Of a stretch of 64,000 nucleotides of DNA, positions 1-56,686 are shown one piece after another; positions within the stretch are counted from its first letter, which is position 1, and each line of letters starts with the position of its first letter. The translations under genes were made by a program, and so were the position numbers. The stretch lies in contig NZ_FMHT01000003.1 of NCBI RefSeq assembly GCF_900091585.1, positions 4,765,501-4,829,500 of the forward strand. Direction: 5' to 3'. The notes under the pieces were generated by a model. That model worked only from the letters and a program-made list of their open reading frames with translations, searched no databases and was not told where the DNA came from. This stretch comes from Micromonospora nigra (GTDB taxonomy: Bacteria > Actinomycetota > Actinomycetes > Mycobacteriales > Micromonosporaceae).

Positions 1-188
1 TGCTGAAGGCGCGCGGCGCGGTCGTCTCCAGCGAGGAACTGCTGGAACGCGTCTGGGACGCCAACACCGACCCGTTCACCACGATCGTCCGGGTTACGGT
101 GATGACGCTGCGCAAGAAGCTGGGCGACCCGCAGCTGATCGAGACGGTGGTGGGCGCGGGCTACCGCACGGCCGGGGTGGTTTCGTGA
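1..188 (+). CDS. response regulator, OmpR/PhoB family, C-terminal part (partial gene)
   Basis: The frame is open from base 3 to the TGA at 186-188, giving the last 61 codons. They read as a winged-helix output domain: a helix with SSEELLERVW, a recognition helix around RVTVMTLRKKLGD, and the closing wing ending in VVGAGYR, the usual end of the Trans_reg_C family. The phospho-receiver domain lies before the window. The stop is inside a GTGA that begins the first 59-bp repeat unit, and the partner histidine kinase starts two units later, so the two form a two-component operon. Target genes cannot be told from the sequence. Confidence 0.88.
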   Translation, partial: LKARGAVVSSEELLERVWDANTDPFTTIVRVTVMTLRKKLGDPQLIETVVGAGYRTAGVVS

Positions 189-355
189 GCGTGAGGAGTG
201 AGCCGGTGTTGCGAGCCCCGCAGTCGCGAACCGGGGTGGTTTCGTGAGCGTGAGGAGTGAGCCGGTGTTGCGAGCCCCGCAGTCGCGAGCCGGGGTGGTT
301 TCGTGAGCGTGAGGAGTGAGCCGGTGTTGCGAGCCCCGCAGTCGCGAACCGGGGG
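185..355 (+). repeat. 59-bp GTGA-bounded element, two full copies plus a third fused to the kinase gene
   Basis: Units begin at 185, 244 and 303, an exact 59-bp period. Each starts GTGAGCGTGAGGAGTGAGCC and has a conserved core of about 47 bp followed by a 12-bp tail. The 12 bases before the first unit (173-184) are identical to the tail of units 1 and 2, as if flanking DNA had been copied with each unit. Read from its GTG, each full unit encodes 20 codons (MSVRSEPVLRAPQSRT plus four residues) and stops at a TGA that overlaps the next GTG by 4 nt (185-247, 244-306). The third copy runs in frame into the kinase. Related copies lie at 5927-5985 and 55831-55948. Confidence 0.9.
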
Positions 356-1553
356 TGACCTGGCGGCCGGTTCGCCCCGGCTGCGGCCGACGTTACGGCT
401 GCGGCTCACGCTGCTCAACGGCGTCCTGCTGGTGGGTGCGGGCGCGATCCTGGTGCTGCTGGCCTGGCTGCTGGTCCGCGACGCCCTGCGCCCCACAGAC
501 GAGCTGCTGCCCGGCACGACGGTGGTGCTGGCCGACGGTCGCACGCTGGACGCCGCGCAGTGGCAGCGGCAGCTGGCCGACTCCGCGTCGGGGGAACTGC
601 TGGCCAAGGGGCTCGGTGCGCTGTTGGCGATCAGCGCGGTCGGGGTGGTCGGCGCGTACGCGGTCGCCGGCCGGGCGCTGCGCCCGCTGCACCAGGTCAC
701 CGCCACCGCCCGCCGGCTCGGCGAGACGACGCTGGACCAGCGCATCGGCTACTCGGGCGCGGACGACGAGGTGGCCGAGCTGGCCGACACCTTCGACGCG
801 ATGCTGGATCGGATCACCGCCGCCTTCGCGGCGCAGAAGCGGTTCGTCGCCAACGCCTCACACGAGCTGCGCACCCCGCTCGCCGTCATGCGAACCGAGA
901 TCGACGTGACGCTCAGCGACGACGAGGCGGACACGGACGAGTACCGCCGGATGGCCACGGTGGTGCGTGACGCCTCCGAGCGGGCCAACGGGCTGGTCGA
1001 CGCGCTGCTGGTACTCGCCCGTAGTGAGGCGCAGACGGGCCGGCGGCTCGGCCGGCGTACCGAATGCGACCTGGCCGTCGGCACCGCCAACGCGTTGTCG
1101 GCGGTACGCCGCGAGGTGGAGCGGATCAAGCTGCGGGTGCAGACCTCGTTGGAGTCCGCGCCGGTGGTCGGCGATCCCGGACTGCTCGACCGGCTGGCCG
1201 GCAACCTCGTCGAGAACGCGGTCCGCTACAACCACCTGCACGGACGGATCTGGGTGCGGACCGGCTCCGACGGATCCCGGTCCTGGCTGGTGGTGGGCAA
1301 CACCGGTTTCGAGGTGGACCAGGCCGACGTGCCGGGGCTGTTCGAGCCGTTCCGGCGGGGCGGGCAGGAACGCACGGGCGCCCGGGGCTCCGGGCTGGGG
1401 CTCTCCATCGTCCGGGCGGTCTGCGACGCGCACGGCGGCACCGTCAAGGTGCTCGCCCAACCGGGCGGTGGACTGGAGGTCACCGTGACCCTGCCCTGCG
1501 CCGACAACCTTCCGGCGGTGGCCGCCAGCGCCAAACGGCGAGCCGGACCGTAG
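303..1553 (+). CDS. sensor histidine kinase (two-component, HAMP-HisKA-HATPase)
   Basis: A 416-residue membrane kinase. Order: cytoplasmic tail (1-35), first membrane helix (about 36-58), short outside loop (about 60-100), second helix (about 103-125), HAMP linker (about 125-178), HisKA with the phospho-acceptor His187 in FVANASHELRTP, and an ATPase domain with N box NLVENAVRYN, a G1-like VGNTG and G2 GARGSGLGLSIV. It should autophosphorylate and pass phosphate to the regulator ending at 188. The first 17 or so residues (MSVRSEPVLRAPQSRTG) come from the 59-bp repeat, which also supplies the GTG start. No other in-frame ATG or GTG exists before the first membrane helix. The signal sensed is unknown. 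Confidence 0.92.
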   Translation: MSVRSEPVLRAPQSRTGGDLAAGSPRLRPTLRLRLTLLNGVLLVGAGAILVLLAWLLVRDALRPTDELLPGTTVVLADGRTLDAAQWQRQLADSASGELLAKGLGALLAISAVGVVGAYAVAGRALRPLHQVTATARRLGETTLDQRIGYSGADDEVAELADTFDAMLDRITAAFAAQKRFVANASHELRTPLAVMRTEIDVTLSDDEADTDEYRRMATVVRDASERANGLVDALLVLARSEAQTGRRLGRRTECDLAVGTANALSAVRREVERIKLRVQTSLESAPVVGDPGLLDRLAGNLVENAVRYNHLHGRIWVRTGSDGSRSWLVVGNTGFEVDQADVPGLFEPFRRGGQERTGARGSGLGLSIVRAVCDAHGGTVKVLAQPGGGLEVTVTLPCADNLPAVAASAKRRAGP

Positions 1554-1727: not shown

Positions 1728-2801
1728 TCAGCCCCGCTGTTGCACCTGGGCGCGGATGGTCGCGAACTCCCTGGCGGCTTCCGGGCCGGAGGAGAAGTAG
1801 ACGACGAACAGGGCCAGGCTGCCCCGGTCCGCCCAGACGCAGACGCCCAGGGGCACGTTGTCGGTCTTGCCGTCGGCGCACCGCGCCTCGCCGCCGAGCG
1901 GCCCCGCGTCGATGGTGCGGATGTCGCGGACGGCCAGTTCCTTGGACAGCGCCGAAATGGCGTCGACCAGTTCCTGGTTCGGGTTGAGGATCAGCCCCGA
2001 CGCTCCCGCCAGCATGATCATGTCCTGTTTGGCGGGGTCGCCGTAGAACGCGCCGACCGCGCTGGTCTCGTTGCGTACCGAGGACTTCATGTCCCGGACC
2101 ATCTGGTCGGCGACAGCGGTGAACTCCGGTTCGGTGAGCTTCGGCCGCCCGGCGAGGGTCGTCGGCGCGACCAGTCGGGTTCGCCCCGCCGGCGCCGGAT
2201 CCGTCGATGTGCCGGGGTCCGCCGAGGCGTCGGGGTCGGCCGGCGGGGAGCTGCTCGGCACCGGTGGGTTGGACGCGCCGGGCGTCGGGCTGGCACTCGC
2301 CGAGGCGGTCGGGTCGGCGGGATCGTTGTCGGACAGGGCGTACCAGGCGAGGCCGCCACCGCCGCCGAGGCACAACAGCAGGGTCACTGCGGAGAGCAGA
2401 CCCACCAGGAGGCTGGTGCGGGACGTCTTCGGCGGTGGGGCGTACGGCTGCACGGGCGGGTACCCGGCGTAGCCGGGATCACCGTGCGGCGGGAAGCCAC
2501 CCGGCCCCGGGTGGGCCGCCGGCTGCGGGTGACCGGCGTACGGCTGTGGCTCGCCGTATGGCTGTGGCTCGCCGTATGGCTGTGGCTCGCCGTACTGCGG
2601 CTGTTGCTCGGCTGGCGGGGGCCAACCACCGGCGGCCGGTTCGCCGTAGCGTGGTTGCTCGCCGGGCTGCGCCCAACCGCCGGCCGGCGGGGGCGGCGGC
2701 CAGCCAGCCTGCGGAGGATGACCGCCGGCGGGCGGGTAGGAACCGTACGGCGAGCCGGGCTCCGGCTGCGACGGGTGGGGGTCGGCCGGGGGTGGGTACA
2801 T
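1728..2801 (-). CDS. proline-rich single-pass membrane protein, paralogue A
   Basis: A 357-residue protein of unknown function. Residues 1-125 are rich in Pro, Gly, Tyr and Gln, with a perfect triple GEPQPY repeat encoded by an 18-bp DNA repeat near 2540-2600. One membrane helix follows (about 130-155, SLLVGLLSAVTLLLCLGG), then a Ser/Pro/Asp linker, then an outside domain of about 150 residues from TRLVAPTTLAGRPKLTEPE to the end. That domain holds NETSAVGAFYGDPAKQD and two Cys (EARC, GVCVW) that could form a disulfide. It is clearly homologous over this domain to the neighbour at 2925-3704, so the pair arose by duplication. The start has GGAG upstream. The family is not one I can name. Confidence 0.8.
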   Translation of the reverse strand: MYPPPADPHPSQPEPGSPYGSYPPAGGHPPQAGWPPPPPAGGWAQPGEQPRYGEPAAGGWPPPAEQQPQYGEPQPYGEPQPYGEPQPYAGHPQPAAHPGPGGFPPHGDPGYAGYPPVQPYAPPPKTSRTSLLVGLLSAVTLLLCLGGGGGLAWYALSDNDPADPTASASASPTPGASNPPVPSSSPPADPDASADPGTSTDPAPAGRTRLVAPTTLAGRPKLTEPEFTAVADQMVRDMKSSVRNETSAVGAFYGDPAKQDMIMLAGASGLILNPNQELVDAISALSKELAVRDIRTIDAGPLGGEARCADGKTDNVPLGVCVWADRGSLALFVVYFSSGPEAAREFATIRAQVQQRG

Positions 2802-3856: not shown

Positions 3857-5926
3857 TCAGGCGTTCAGGCTCGCCACGCCGGGCGGTAGGAACCGCCGGC
3901 CGGTGACCCGCTCGCTGGTGCCCGTCCGATCCAGGTACGGCGTGACGCCGCCCAGGTGGAACGGCCAGCCGGCACCGAGGATCATGCACAGGTCGATGTC
4001 CTGCGCCTCGGCCACGACACCCTCGTCGAGCATCAGCCGGATCTCCTGCGCCAGCGCGTCGAGCGCGTTCTGGCGCACCTGCTCCTCGGTGAGCGGCTGG
4101 TCGCCGACCACGAGCAGCTTCGCCACCTCGGCGTTGATCTCGTCGTCGACGACGATGGGCTGGCCCGAGTCGGCGATCCGCTTGAGGTTCTCGCTGACGC
4201 CGAACCGGTCCGGGAACGCGGCGTGCAGGGTGCCGCCCACGTGGTACGCCACGGCCGGGCCGACCAGCTGGAGCAGGGCCAGCGGGCGCATCGGCAGGCC
4301 AAGCGGGTCCAGCGCGCGGTTCGCCACCTCCAGCGGTGTGCCCGCGTCGACGGCGGCGAACACGGTGCCGAGGAACCGCGTCAGCAGCCGGTTCACCACG
4401 AACGCCGGGGCGTCGGAGACCAGCACGCTCGACTTCTTGAGCTGCTTGCCCACCGCGAAGGCGGTGGCCAGGGTCGCGTCGTCGGTGCGCTCGCCCCGGA
4501 CGATCTCCAGCAGCGGCAGCACCGCCACCGGGTTGAAGAAGTGGAAGCCGACCACCCGCTCGGGGTGCTCCAGGTCCTCCGCCATCGCGGTGATCGACAG
4601 CGACGACGTGTTCGTCGCCAGCACGGCGTCCGGCTTGACGATCTTCTCCAGCTCCGCCCAGACCTGCTTCTTGATGGCCAGGTCCTCGAAGACGGCCTCG
4701 ATGACGAAGTCGGCATCCGCGAAGACACCCTTGTCGACCGAACCGCTGACCAGGCCGTACAGCTTGGCGGCGGTGCCCTTGTCCATCCGGCCCTTGCTGA
4801 CGGCCTTCTCGATCTGGGCGTGCACGTAGCCGACGCCCTTGTCGACGCGGGCCTGGTCCAGGTCGGTCATGACGACCGGCACCTGGAGGCGGCGGGCGAA
4901 CAGCAGGGCGAGCTGGCTGGCCATCAGCCCGGCACCCACGATGCCCACCTTGGTCACGGGGCGGGCCAGGCCCTTGTCCGGCGCGCCGGCCGGCCGCTTG
5001 GCCCGCCGCTGCACCAGGTCGAAGGCGTACAGGCCGCTGCGCAGCTCCTCGGAGAACACCAGGTCGGCCAGCGCCTCGTCCTCGGCGGCGGTGCCGGTCG
5101 CGAAGTCGGCGTCCTTCGCCGTCTCCAGCAGGTCCAGCGCCCGATAGGCGGCCGGGACCGCGCCGTGCAGCCGGGAGTCGAGGGTCTGCCGGGCGAAGTA
5201 GAGCACGCCCGCCCACATGTCCTTGTCGACCTCGGGCCGGGTCACGGTGACCTCACCCCGGACGACCCCGGCGGCCCACTCCAGGGACCGTTCCAGGAAG
5301 TCAGCCGGCTCCAGCAGGACGTCAGCGATGCCAAGCTCGGCGGCCTGCTTCGGCTTGAGCATCTTGTTCTGCATCAGCGGGTTCTGGATGATCACCTGGG
5401 TCGCCGCCGGGATGCCGATCAGGTTCGGCAGCAACTGGGTGCCGCCCCAGCCCGGGATGAGGCCGAGGGAGACCTCGGGCAGCGCCAGCGCCGCCGCGCC
5501 GGCCGACAGCGTCCGGTAGTGGCAGTGCAGCGCCAACTCCAGGCCACCGCCCATGGCCGCCCCGTTGACGAAGGCGAAGGTCGGGACGTCGGCGTCCTTG
5601 AGCCGGGCGAACACCCGGTGGCCCAGGCGGCCGACCTCCAGCGCCTGCTCGCGGTCCGCGAGGGCCGGCAGGCTGGTGATGTCGGCGCCGACGCAGAAGA
5701 CGTACGGCTTACCGGTGACCGCGACGAACGCCGGGTTCGCCGCCAGGGCGGCGGTGATCGCCTCGTCCAGGCTGGTCAGGCCGCCCGGGCCGAAGGTGTT
5801 CGGCTTGGTGTGGTCGAAGCCGTTGTCCAGGGTGATCAGGGCGGCCGGACGGTCCAGCCCCGGTACGTCCACCTGGCGCAGCAGCGCCTTCGTGACCACC
5901 TCGTTGGGTGCCGTGAGCGCGCTCAC
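3857..5926 (-). CDS. fadB: fatty-acid oxidation complex alpha subunit: enoyl-CoA hydratase / 3-hydroxyacyl-CoA dehydrogenase
   Basis: A 689-residue bifunctional enzyme for steps 2 and 3 of beta-oxidation. The N-terminal crotonase domain (about 1-220) has both acid residues expected for hydration: Glu130 in GAAMGGGLEL and Glu151 in LPEVSLGLIPGWGG. The NAD-binding motif VGIVGAGLMASQ lies at 327-338, NTSSLSI and the catalytic His of GFHFFNPV follow, and two C-terminal dehydrogenase domains complete it. The GTG start (5926) is the last GTGA of a 59-bp unit that separates it from the thiolase stop. The thiolase just upstream is the matching beta subunit, so the pair is a classic fadAB-type operon. 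Confidence 0.95.
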   Translation of the reverse strand: MSALTAPNEVVTKALLRQVDVPGLDRPAALITLDNGFDHTKPNTFGPGGLTSLDEAITAALAANPAFVAVTGKPYVFCVGADITSLPALADREQALEVGRLGHRVFARLKDADVPTFAFVNGAAMGGGLELALHCHYRTLSAGAAALALPEVSLGLIPGWGGTQLLPNLIGIPAATQVIIQNPLMQNKMLKPKQAAELGIADVLLEPADFLERSLEWAAGVVRGEVTVTRPEVDKDMWAGVLYFARQTLDSRLHGAVPAAYRALDLLETAKDADFATGTAAEDEALADLVFSEELRSGLYAFDLVQRRAKRPAGAPDKGLARPVTKVGIVGAGLMASQLALLFARRLQVPVVMTDLDQARVDKGVGYVHAQIEKAVSKGRMDKGTAAKLYGLVSGSVDKGVFADADFVIEAVFEDLAIKKQVWAELEKIVKPDAVLATNTSSLSITAMAEDLEHPERVVGFHFFNPVAVLPLLEIVRGERTDDATLATAFAVGKQLKKSSVLVSDAPAFVVNRLLTRFLGTVFAAVDAGTPLEVANRALDPLGLPMRPLALLQLVGPAVAYHVGGTLHAAFPDRFGVSENLKRIADSGQPIVVDDEINAEVAKLLVVGDQPLTEEQVRQNALDALAQEIRLMLDEGVVAEAQDIDLCMILGAGWPFHLGGVTPYLDRTGTSERVTGRRFLPPGVASLNA

Positions 5927-5985
5927 CGTACGCTCTCCGTTCGCGACTGCGGGACTCGCAGGCCCGGCTCGTTCCTCGCGCTCAC
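5927..5985 (-). repeat. 59-bp GTGA-bounded element, single copy
   Basis: One unit between the thiolase stop (TGA 5984-5982) and the fadB start (GTG 5926). From GTG 5985 it encodes 20 codons (MSARNEPGLRVPQSRT plus four) and stops at TGA 5925-5923, overlapping the fadB GTG by 4 nt. Its 47-bp core matches the bioF/bioD copy at about 41 positions. It lies in the direction of transcription, as do the copies near 185 and 55831. The 12-bp tail does not clearly match the 12 bases before the unit, unlike the copy near 185. Confidence 0.88.
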
Positions 5986-54697: not shown

Positions 54698-55834
54698 GTG
54701 GCGGACTGGCTGGCGGCGCTCGACCGTCGCGCCGAGCTGCGGGCCAAGGCGGGACTGACCCGCCGGTTGCGCCCACGTGCCGCCGACGACGGAGTGGTCG
54801 ACCTGGCCGGCAACGACTACCTCGGGCTGGCCGGTCACCCGGAGGTCACCGCCGCGGCCACCCGGGCGCTGTCGGCGTACGGGCTGGGTGCCACCGGATC
54901 GCGGCTGGTCCGCGGCTCCACGCACACCCACCACACCCTTGAGGACGCCCTGGCCGACTGGTTGGGTGCCGAACGGGCCCTGGTGTTCTCCTCCGGCTAC
55001 CTGGCGAACCTCGGTGCCGTCCGGGGGCTGGTGCAGCCGCGTACGCTGCTGGTCTCCGACGCCCACAACCACGCCTCGCTGATCGACGGCTGCCGGATCT
55101 CCGGCGCGGAGACGCTGGTGACCCCGCATGCCGATGTGGCCGCCGTGGCGGCGGCGCTCGCCGCGGCCCCCGGTCGACCGGCGGTGGTGGTCACCGAGTC
55201 GGTCTTCTCCGTCGACGGCGACCTGGCTCCGCTGGCCCGGCTGCACGCCGTCGCCCGCGAACACGGCGCGTTGCTGCTGGTCGACGACGCCCACGCCCTC
55301 GGTGTGGTGGGTCCGCACGGGGCGGGGGGCGTGGCCGCCGCAGGGCTCGCCGGCCAGCCGGACGTCGTGGTCACCGCGACGTTGTCCAAGGCGCTCGGCG
55401 GGGCCGGGGGTGTGGTCGCCGGCCCGGCGGCCTTCGTCCGGCACCTGGTCGAGACCGGCCGGACCTTCATCTTCGACACCGCGCTGCCGCCGGCCGTGGC
55501 CGCCGGGGTGCAGGTCGCCGTCGGGTTGGCCCGTGCCGGGGATCCGCTGCGCGCCGAACTGGCCGACCGGGCGGCCCTGGCGGTGCGCCGGCTGCGTGCC
55601 GCCGGGCTCGGTGTCTCCGTACCCGACGCGGCGGTGGTCTCGGTGACCGCGCCGGGCCCGGAGGCCGCCACCGCCTGGGCGGCGGACTGTCGGGACCGGG
55701 GCGTGGCGGTCGGCTGCTTCCGCCCGCCGTCCACCCCGGACAGCCGGTCCCGGCTGCGCCTGACCATCGGCGCGGGGGTGCCGAGGTGGGACTTCGAGCG
55801 GGCGCTGGAGGTCATAGTGGAGGTGGCACCGTGA
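54698..55834 (+). CDS. bioF: 8-amino-7-oxononanoate synthase
   Basis: 378 residues. PLP enzyme that joins pimeloyl thioester and alanine. Seen: [51 protein letters not shown], and the PLP Lys in [13 protein letters not shown] start with GGAGGG upstream; TAACTT at 54620-54625 is a possible -10. Its TGA is in the first GTGA of the 59-bp tandem that separates it from bioD. No bioA is in this window. Confidence 0.95.
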
Positions 55835-55948
55835 GCGTGAGGAGTGAGCCGGGTTTGCGAGCCCCGCAGTCGCGAACTGAGCAGGCACCGTGAGCGTGAG
55901 GAGTGAGCCGGGTTTGCGAGCCCCGCAGTCGCGAACTGAGCAGGCACC
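55831..55948 (+). repeat. 59-bp GTGA-bounded element, two tandem copies between bioF and bioD
   Basis: Units start at 55831 and 55890 and are identical; the next GTGA at 55949 starts bioD. Each encodes 20 codons ([16 protein letters not shown] plus four) ending at a TGA that overlaps the next GTG (55831-55893, 55890-55952). The core differs from that near 185 at about 2 of 47 positions. GGCACC before the first unit is repeated at the end of each unit. Within a unit, GTTTGCGA and TCGCGAAC can form an 8-bp stem with one G-U pair. Confidence 0.92.
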
Positions 55949-56686
55949 GTGAGTGCGGCGGGTGAGCCGTGGCGGGGTCCGGTGCTGGTCACCGGCACCG
56001 ACACCGAGGTGGGCAAGACGGTGGTGACGGCGGCGGTCGCCGCTGCGGCGCAGGCCGCCGGCCTGCGGGTCGGGGTGGTCAAGCCCGGTCAGACGGGTAC
56101 GGTCACCGGCGAACCGACCGACACCGAGACGGTCACCCGACTCGCCGCGCCGTTGACCGCGCGGACCCTGGCCAGCTTCCCCGACCCGCTGGCCCCGCTG
56201 GCCGCCGCCCGGGTGGCGGGGTTGGAGCCGCTGGAGCTCTACGCCGCCGTCGACGCCGTCCGCGAGGAGGCCGGGAAGCACGATCTGGTGCTGGTCGAGG
56301 GGGCCGGCGGGCTGTTGGTGCCGATGGGGCTGCGCCCGTCGGGTGAGCCCTGGACGATGGCCGACCTGGCGGTGGCGCTGGGCGCGCCGGCGGTGGTGGT
56401 GGCACGCGCCGGGCTGGGCACGCTCAACCACACGGCGCTGACCCTGGAGGCACTGGAGCGCCGGGCGGTGCCCGCCGGGGTGGTGATCGGCGCCTGGCCG
56501 GCCGAACCGGAACTGGTGCACTGGGCGAATCTGACGGATCTGGTGCCCCACCTGCTGGGCGCCCTGCCGGCCGGTGCCGGCGCGATGGATCCGGGGGTTT
56601 TCCGCCGGTCGGCGCCGGGCTGGTTGACCCCGGCGCTGTACGGCGTCCTCGACGACTGGCGTGCCTGGGCCGAGGACGCCGGCTGA
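55949..56686 (+). CDS. bioD: dethiobiotin synthase
   Basis: 245 residues. P-loop VTGTDTEVGKTVVTAA near the start, KPGQTG (substrate Lys), VEGAGGLLVPMG, and VVVARAGLGTLNHTALTLEAL: all marks of the ATP-dependent carboxylase that closes the ureido ring. The GTG start is the last GTGA of the 59-bp tandem, so its expression should depend on coupling through the two mini-ORFs. Confidence 0.95.
   Translation: MSAAGEPWRGPVLVTGTDTEVGKTVVTAAVAAAAQAAGLRVGVVKPGQTGTVTGEPTDTETVTRLAAPLTARTLASFPDPLAPLAAARVAGLEPLELYAAVDAVREEAGKHDLVLVEGAGGLLVPMGLRPSGEPWTMADLAVALGAPAVVVARAGLGTLNHTALTLEALERRAVPAGVVIGAWPAEPELVHWANLTDLVPHLLGALPAGAGAMDPGVFRRSAPGWLTPALYGVLDDWRAWAEDAG

Follow-up and report, generated by a model that had tools for sequence, protein, structure and literature searches.

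A probable MIRU-type family of short repeats at the NTGA start codons of Micromonosporaceae

The DNA studied here is a window of 64,000 nt from Micromonospora nigra (assembly GCF_900091585.1, contig NZ_FMHT01000003.1, positions 4,765,501-4,829,500 of the forward strand), which carries six units of a short repeat at three sites: three units at 185-361, one on the minus strand at 5985-5927, and two at 55831-55948 (Table 1). The flanking genes are co-oriented at all three sites, and the stop codon of the upstream gene is in each case contained in the leading GTGA. According to Pfam, the neighbors encode a response regulator and a histidine kinase, a thiolase and a protein of the enoyl-CoA hydratase type, and an aminotransferase and an AAA_26 protein (bioF/bioD-like), respectively. 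A preliminary description of the window had reported the 59-bp spacing of the units at 185, 244, and 303, the related units at the other two sites, and their location between genes of the same direction, all of which is borne out, in the case of the related units by both a sequence model and the sequence itself. It had also assigned a 63-nt ORF to every unit, which is correct for the first two units of the first array; the third (core and model match at 303-349) opens at 303 and reads into the kinase gene, where it forms the first codons and thus an in-frame N-terminal extension. In relatives that lack the element, the start lies at the overlap itself.

Table 1. Coordinates of the repeat units and adjoining genes in the 64,000-nt window.
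Feature	Position	Strand	Remarks
Response regulator gene, 3' end	3..188	+	Gene begins left of the window; stop TGA at 186-188; open frame to 188
Same response regulator (upstream gene of the first array)	L027:1088-1786		Response_reg and Trans_reg_C (Pfam)
First array, unit 1	185..247	+	Mini-ORF of 20 codons plus stop; core and model match at 185-231, linker, next GTGA at 244
First array, unit 2	244..306	+	Mini-ORF of 20 codons plus stop; model match at 244-290
Histidine kinase gene	303..1553	+	416 aa from GTG at 303; HAMP and HisKA (Pfam)
Single unit, thiolase/enoyl-CoA hydratase-type junction	5923..5985	-	63-nt mini-ORF; model match at 5985-5938; thiolase stop overlaps 5985-5982; enoyl-CoA hydratase-type start at 5926, GTGA
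bioF/bioD-type junction, unit 1	55831..55893	+	GTGA overlaps the aminotransferase stop; model match at 55831-55877
bioF/bioD-type junction, unit 2	55890..55952	+	Stop overlaps the GTGA start of the AAA_26 (bioD-like) gene at 55949; match at 55890-55936

A chance origin of the core words in the window is ruled out, because the word GAGCCCCGCAGTCGCGA, with up to three mismatches, occurs six times against an expectation of 1.49, a number reached by none of 100 shuffles. The sequence model scores the six units at E values of 1.3e-17 to 2.7e-15 (next best, E ≥0.35), which is a restatement rather than a test, because the model was built from copies in the same genome. The upstream flank of the first array, CCGGGGTGGTTTC, recurs in the linker of unit 1 and again in that of unit 2, and the linker of unit 3 differs, as if the edge of the array had been homogenized or duplicated. 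Elsewhere in the window (1728-2801, minus strand), the translation of an ORF has a proline-rich N-terminal part with YGEPQP repeats, and a likely membrane segment comes after it.

Each unit consists of a core of roughly 43-48 bp, in which a variable stretch separates GTGAGCGCGAGGAGTG from GAGCCCCGCAGTCGCGAAC, and a short linker that usually contains a Shine-Dalgarno-like word. Among the matches listed, unit length is mostly 53-62 bp, and 91 spacings between consecutive units range from 48 to 68 bp, with 59 (30 cases), 60 (21), and 56 (13) being the commonest and some of the extreme values stemming from loosely detected units; a cleaned set of 55 spacings comprises values of 56-62 and a single one of 114. 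This range rules out the exact 59-bp period that had been considered a general and defining trait of the element. Among the same matches, 53 of the 91 spacings are 2 mod 3, 35 are 0 mod 3, and only 3 are 1 mod 3 (36, 17, and 2 of the cleaned 55), and the three classes were seen in 21, 9, and 2 of the 31 array-bearing junction families, respectively. It is the frame that is kept, rather than period or unit length.

With a spacing of 2 mod 3, the stop/start overlap is restored between units, as had been claimed for all units; with a spacing of 0 mod 3, consecutive units merge into one longer ORF. In arrays with a spacing of 60, the ORF of the first unit spans all units and its stop still overlaps the start of the next gene, for example in the seven units of L043. 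By these frames, the translational coupling originally proposed is supported in a wider form, which would include both overlap and in-frame fusion. Array size among the matches listed is 1 to 4 units in 102 arrays and reaches 7 in L043, a variation that was compared between species and not between strains of one species. The distance from the last unit to the overlapping start is 59, 56, 62, or 53 in 72 of the 78 overlap cases listed.

The genome of M. nigra contains many further copies. DNA searches located 19 places with one query (E ≤1e-3) and 34 with another (E ≤10), and a sequence-only model made from 21 units of this genome yielded 52 matches at E ≤1. Twenty sites (L009-L027 and L259) were read individually; both neighbors are in frame at 15 of them, with 13 overlaps and 2 fusions to the next gene (L014 and L027). 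At L019 and L026, the downstream coupling frame is present without a convincing in-frame upstream gene. Misfits are L016, where the upstream stop is a TAG 5 nt away and the frame is the third one, and L021, which has no GTGA. At L015 (G000:C3:1128600-1132100), 54-bp repeats are fused in frame to a Mur ligase gene, and their stop overlaps an mraY-type start; here, the GTGA is changed to GGGA, and the units read as 18-residue repeats at the C-terminus of the ligase. Other junctions identified by Pfam include gap/pgk, Mur ligase/MraY, CobN/Mg-chelatase, acyl-CoA dehydrogenase/carboxyltransferase, WYL/PafC, PaaC/PaaD, RNase PH/Ham1, and MurJ/glycosyltransferase. Four weaker matches (L260-L263) are eroded copies amid coding DNA with a start codon shortly downstream. 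Six weak and eroded matches, two of which were inspected, lie within 11 kb (G000:C3:3319898-3330595; L260 and L261) and may represent several old insertions in one operon.

The position of the repeat relative to genes was assessed in 120 stretches chosen by the core pattern and not by position, which contain, among the matches listed, 124 arrays; 22 were left out because of short flanks, leaving 102 usable arrays (with L132 counted twice). Gene frames were called by codon usage, with 32 long ORFs from the window as the training set; this replaced a test for long open frames because control sites often pass the latter (194 of 514 upstream, 93 of 514 with a downstream overlap). In 85 of the 102 arrays listed, the TGA within the GTGA of the first unit is in the frame of the upstream gene, compared with 50 of the 514 GTGAG sites taken from this DNA as controls; some arrays in this count had spurious leading units, which were removed later for the downstream frames only, and such units are also present in some of the 17 arrays that lack the upstream frame. 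An upstream frame combined with a downstream overlap occurs in 63 of the 102 arrays versus 17 of the 514 controls.

On the downstream side, 78 of the 102 arrays listed place the last unit in the overlap frame of the next gene, 18 are fused to it, 4 are in the third frame, and 2 face an antisense gene, an arrangement found at 190 of the 514 control sites. Downstream coding is thus on the strand of the element in 100 of 102 arrays, and the location and orientation seen in the window are upheld among the matches listed. When the arrays are grouped by downstream protein into 74 junction families, the majority classes are 55 overlap, 14 fusion, 3 third frame, and 2 antisense. A third frame in 3 of 72 families compares with an expectation of one third (p about 2e-9 if families are independent); one additional family has a third-frame member beside a fused one. 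Part of this bias could reflect the length of the founder, because a 59-bp unit placed before an NTGA has the overlap frame from the outset. Most copies lie at sites at which the TGA of one gene and the NTGA start of the next overlap, in the orientation of these genes. In L090, L106, and L123, the units lie by a Shine-Dalgarno-like word (GAGAGG or GAGAGGA) and have no clear in-frame upstream gene; they may have inserted at the start codon of the leading gene of an operon.

Comparison of orthologous junctions, which had been suggested in the preliminary description, revealed both empty and filled sites. Among the best 30 loci for each of two junctions (from 55 and 35 matching genomes, own genome included; L200 is cut off and uninformative), units are present in 5 of 30 at the regulator/kinase junction and in 14 of 30 at the bioF/bioD junction. 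A single insert of exactly 59 bp, immediately in front of the ATGA start, distinguishes the close relatives L216 and L226. L195 and L221 retain shortened inserts between two NTGA (44 and 32 nt, respectively); judged by eye, these inserts are open and in the overlap frame, and L215 has a remnant that, again by eye, forms an in-frame fusion with bioF. In a phylogeny of the upstream gene, occupancy of the bioF/bioD junction requires 7 changes, at least 4 of which are forced by well-supported branches (mean for shuffled labels, 10.3), which shows repeated gain or loss.

The family was found in all 121 genomes of a sample of the genus Micromonospora, with 6 to 53 matches each, the high counts being lower bounds because about 50 first-look candidates were scored per genome. 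In a sample of the family Micromonosporaceae, it is present in 71 of 160 genomes and 21 of 44 genera, with Micromonospora accounting for 20 of the 71. The matches listed include at least 120 named stretches from Micromonospora, Plantactinospora, Paractinoplanes, and other Micromonosporaceae. In a sample of 296 genomes from the phylum, searched with strict filters (E ≤1e-5), the only two genomes with matches are both Micromonospora. A phage origin is ruled out by the absence of matches in 50,697 phage records. A single match among 72,556 plasmid records is located on pLB1 of Micromonospora terminaliae (24,912 bp), where a unit (L258; NZ_CP045310.1, 2476-7563) lies between the genes of an acyltransferase and a glycerol-3-phosphate dehydrogenase, in 55 bases that have no annotated gene, mini-ORF included, in a plasmid gene table stated to be incomplete. 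Searches of the open-licence literature listed no paper whose entry points to this repeat in Micromonospora.

REP/BIME, ERIC, and similar repeats are palindromic and extragenic. The present family shares with them the small size, the large copy number, and the lack of enzyme genes of its own; it differs in that its units have one direction and lie in stop/start overlaps, and in that, of five units, only one has a fold clearly superior to those of its shuffles, the other four being no more than about one SD better. A closer parallel is provided by the mycobacterial interspersed repetitive units (MIRUs), which underlie tuberculosis typing; Supply et al. reportedly found them to run in the direction of the neighboring genes, and they are said to lack dyad symmetry. 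MIRUs (Supply et al. 1997) are treated in PMC12548453, PMC2734929, PMC4213456, and PMC2453075. The first of these, a review, portrays them as repeats of apparent mobility whose insertion point is the start codon and whose ORF is coupled by a spacing of -4 nt, probably with minimal impact on the gene (PMC12548453). Strain H37Rv has 41 places with MIRU units of 40-100 bp, whose function and spread are said to be not well understood (PMC2734929). Units of 77 and 53 bp between senX3 and regX3 are said to occur only in Mycobacterium leprae and the M. tuberculosis complex (PMC4213456), and one gene without a leader in M. marinum carries, in M. bovis, a 5' leader that consists of a single MIRU (PMC4128351).

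The likeness extends to the dispersal of short units at start codons, to an ORF coupled at a distance of -4 nt, and to tandem arrays of variable size, and also to a two-component operon, which is among the best-known MIRU sites and has its counterpart in the regulator/kinase junction of Micromonospora. By our own comparison, the MIRU lengths of 77 and 53 bp are both 2 mod 3, like the commonest spacing class here (53 of 91 among the matches listed). Tens of scattered units per genome (20 readable sites and 52 matches at E ≤1 in M. nigra) and an orientation along the gene strand (100 of the 102 arrays listed) are further common features. Differences lie in the host, since the senX3-regX3 MIRUs described are mycobacterial and the present family belongs to Micromonosporaceae, and in the unit, which is about 53-62 bp here; in-frame read-through arrays are common in the Micromonosporaceae family (35 of the 91 spacings listed). 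By analogy with MIRUs as described, the family would be a MIRU-type repeat, matched by place, direction, overlap, and arrays. The preliminary description knew of no described repeat family with this logic, which must be corrected, because MIRUs are described in this way in PMC12548453. The coupling logic had already been described for MIRUs and is met here in a second bacterial family, Micromonosporaceae.

The reading we consider probable is that of a MIRU-type repeat at NTGA starts whose mini-ORF, in overlap or fusion frame, serves mainly to make the insertion tolerable. As the empty and filled sites show, a unit sits immediately in front of an NTGA start, and in most cases this start overlaps the preceding stop. 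The upstream stop then overlaps the unit's own GTGA instead, and the ORF of the unit extends to the downstream NTGA, so that, judging from the frames, a ribosome that ends the upstream gene could initiate anew on the mini-ORF and once more on the gene that follows. Shine-Dalgarno-like words in the linkers (61 of 72, by a loose definition without control) and the synonymous excess in the mini-ORF frame (given below) count in favor of this reading. Tandem multiplication would follow, in which the readable spacings (2 or 0 mod 3) predominate, and some copies, according to their frame, have become N- or C-terminal extensions of the adjoining proteins. The mini-ORF may mainly make the insertion tolerable rather than encode a useful peptide, because the second half of the peptide changes with the length of the core type while the end frame stays the same.

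It is rather unlikely that the units are beneficial expression modules, in which the linker with its Shine-Dalgarno-like word and the restart site set or raise downstream translation and copy number acts as a dial. Such a role would agree with the recurrence of units at junctions of core metabolism, with a Shine-Dalgarno-like word before the downstream start in the linkers of 61 of the 72 coupled cases listed (loose definition, without control), and with the larger amounts of mRNA that accompanied longer arrays upstream of fpg1 in M. tuberculosis, as reported in PMC2734929. However, by the same loose definition, again without control, such a word is already present within the upstream gene for 64 of the 102 first units listed, and the patchy occupancy of the bioF/bioD and regulator/kinase junctions (14 and 5 of the best 30 loci each) indicates that relatives manage without units. 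An action on transcription, as a promoter or regulator site inside the operon, is very improbable; although the MIRUs of senX3-regX3 are reported to drive senX3-independent expression of regX3 (PMC4213456), this would leave the frame rule unexplained.

We attach an equally small probability to the notion that the selected product is the 20-residue peptide or the extension added to neighboring proteins. In type-A units, the mini-ORF frame has 13 synonymous and 11 other changes, against an opportunity of 37:98, and this excess would fit a constraint on the peptide; yet only 11 distinct units were counted, one of the other frames also shows some excess (8:13 against 31:104; the remaining one 3:19 against 35:100), and the second halves of the core types of 43, 46, and 48 bp are read in different frames and give different peptides. 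Least probable of all is a structured RNA or REP-like element whose relation to the frame is a by-product, which again leaves the frame rule unexplained. The unit of L010 folds clearly better than shuffles (z = -2.62), but the other four units examined do not (z = 0.62, 0.56, 0.11, and -1.20), and Rfam gave no match in 5 loci, which makes RNA structure improbable as the main feature.

Returning to the MIRU-type reading, a more far-reaching version, which we put forward tentatively and at somewhat less than even chances, is that these are independently evolved and still mobile mini-elements of Micromonosporaceae, about 53-62 bp long and placed precisely before NTGA starts, whose frame rule makes many operon junctions natural re-initiation experiments. 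A second family of the MIRU kind across a large soil genus, with empty and filled sites in close relatives and frame-keeping deletions, is a harmless system rich in data, in which one can ask by what means a repeat gets into start codons without doing damage and whether ribosomes are in fact handed on at stop/start overlaps.
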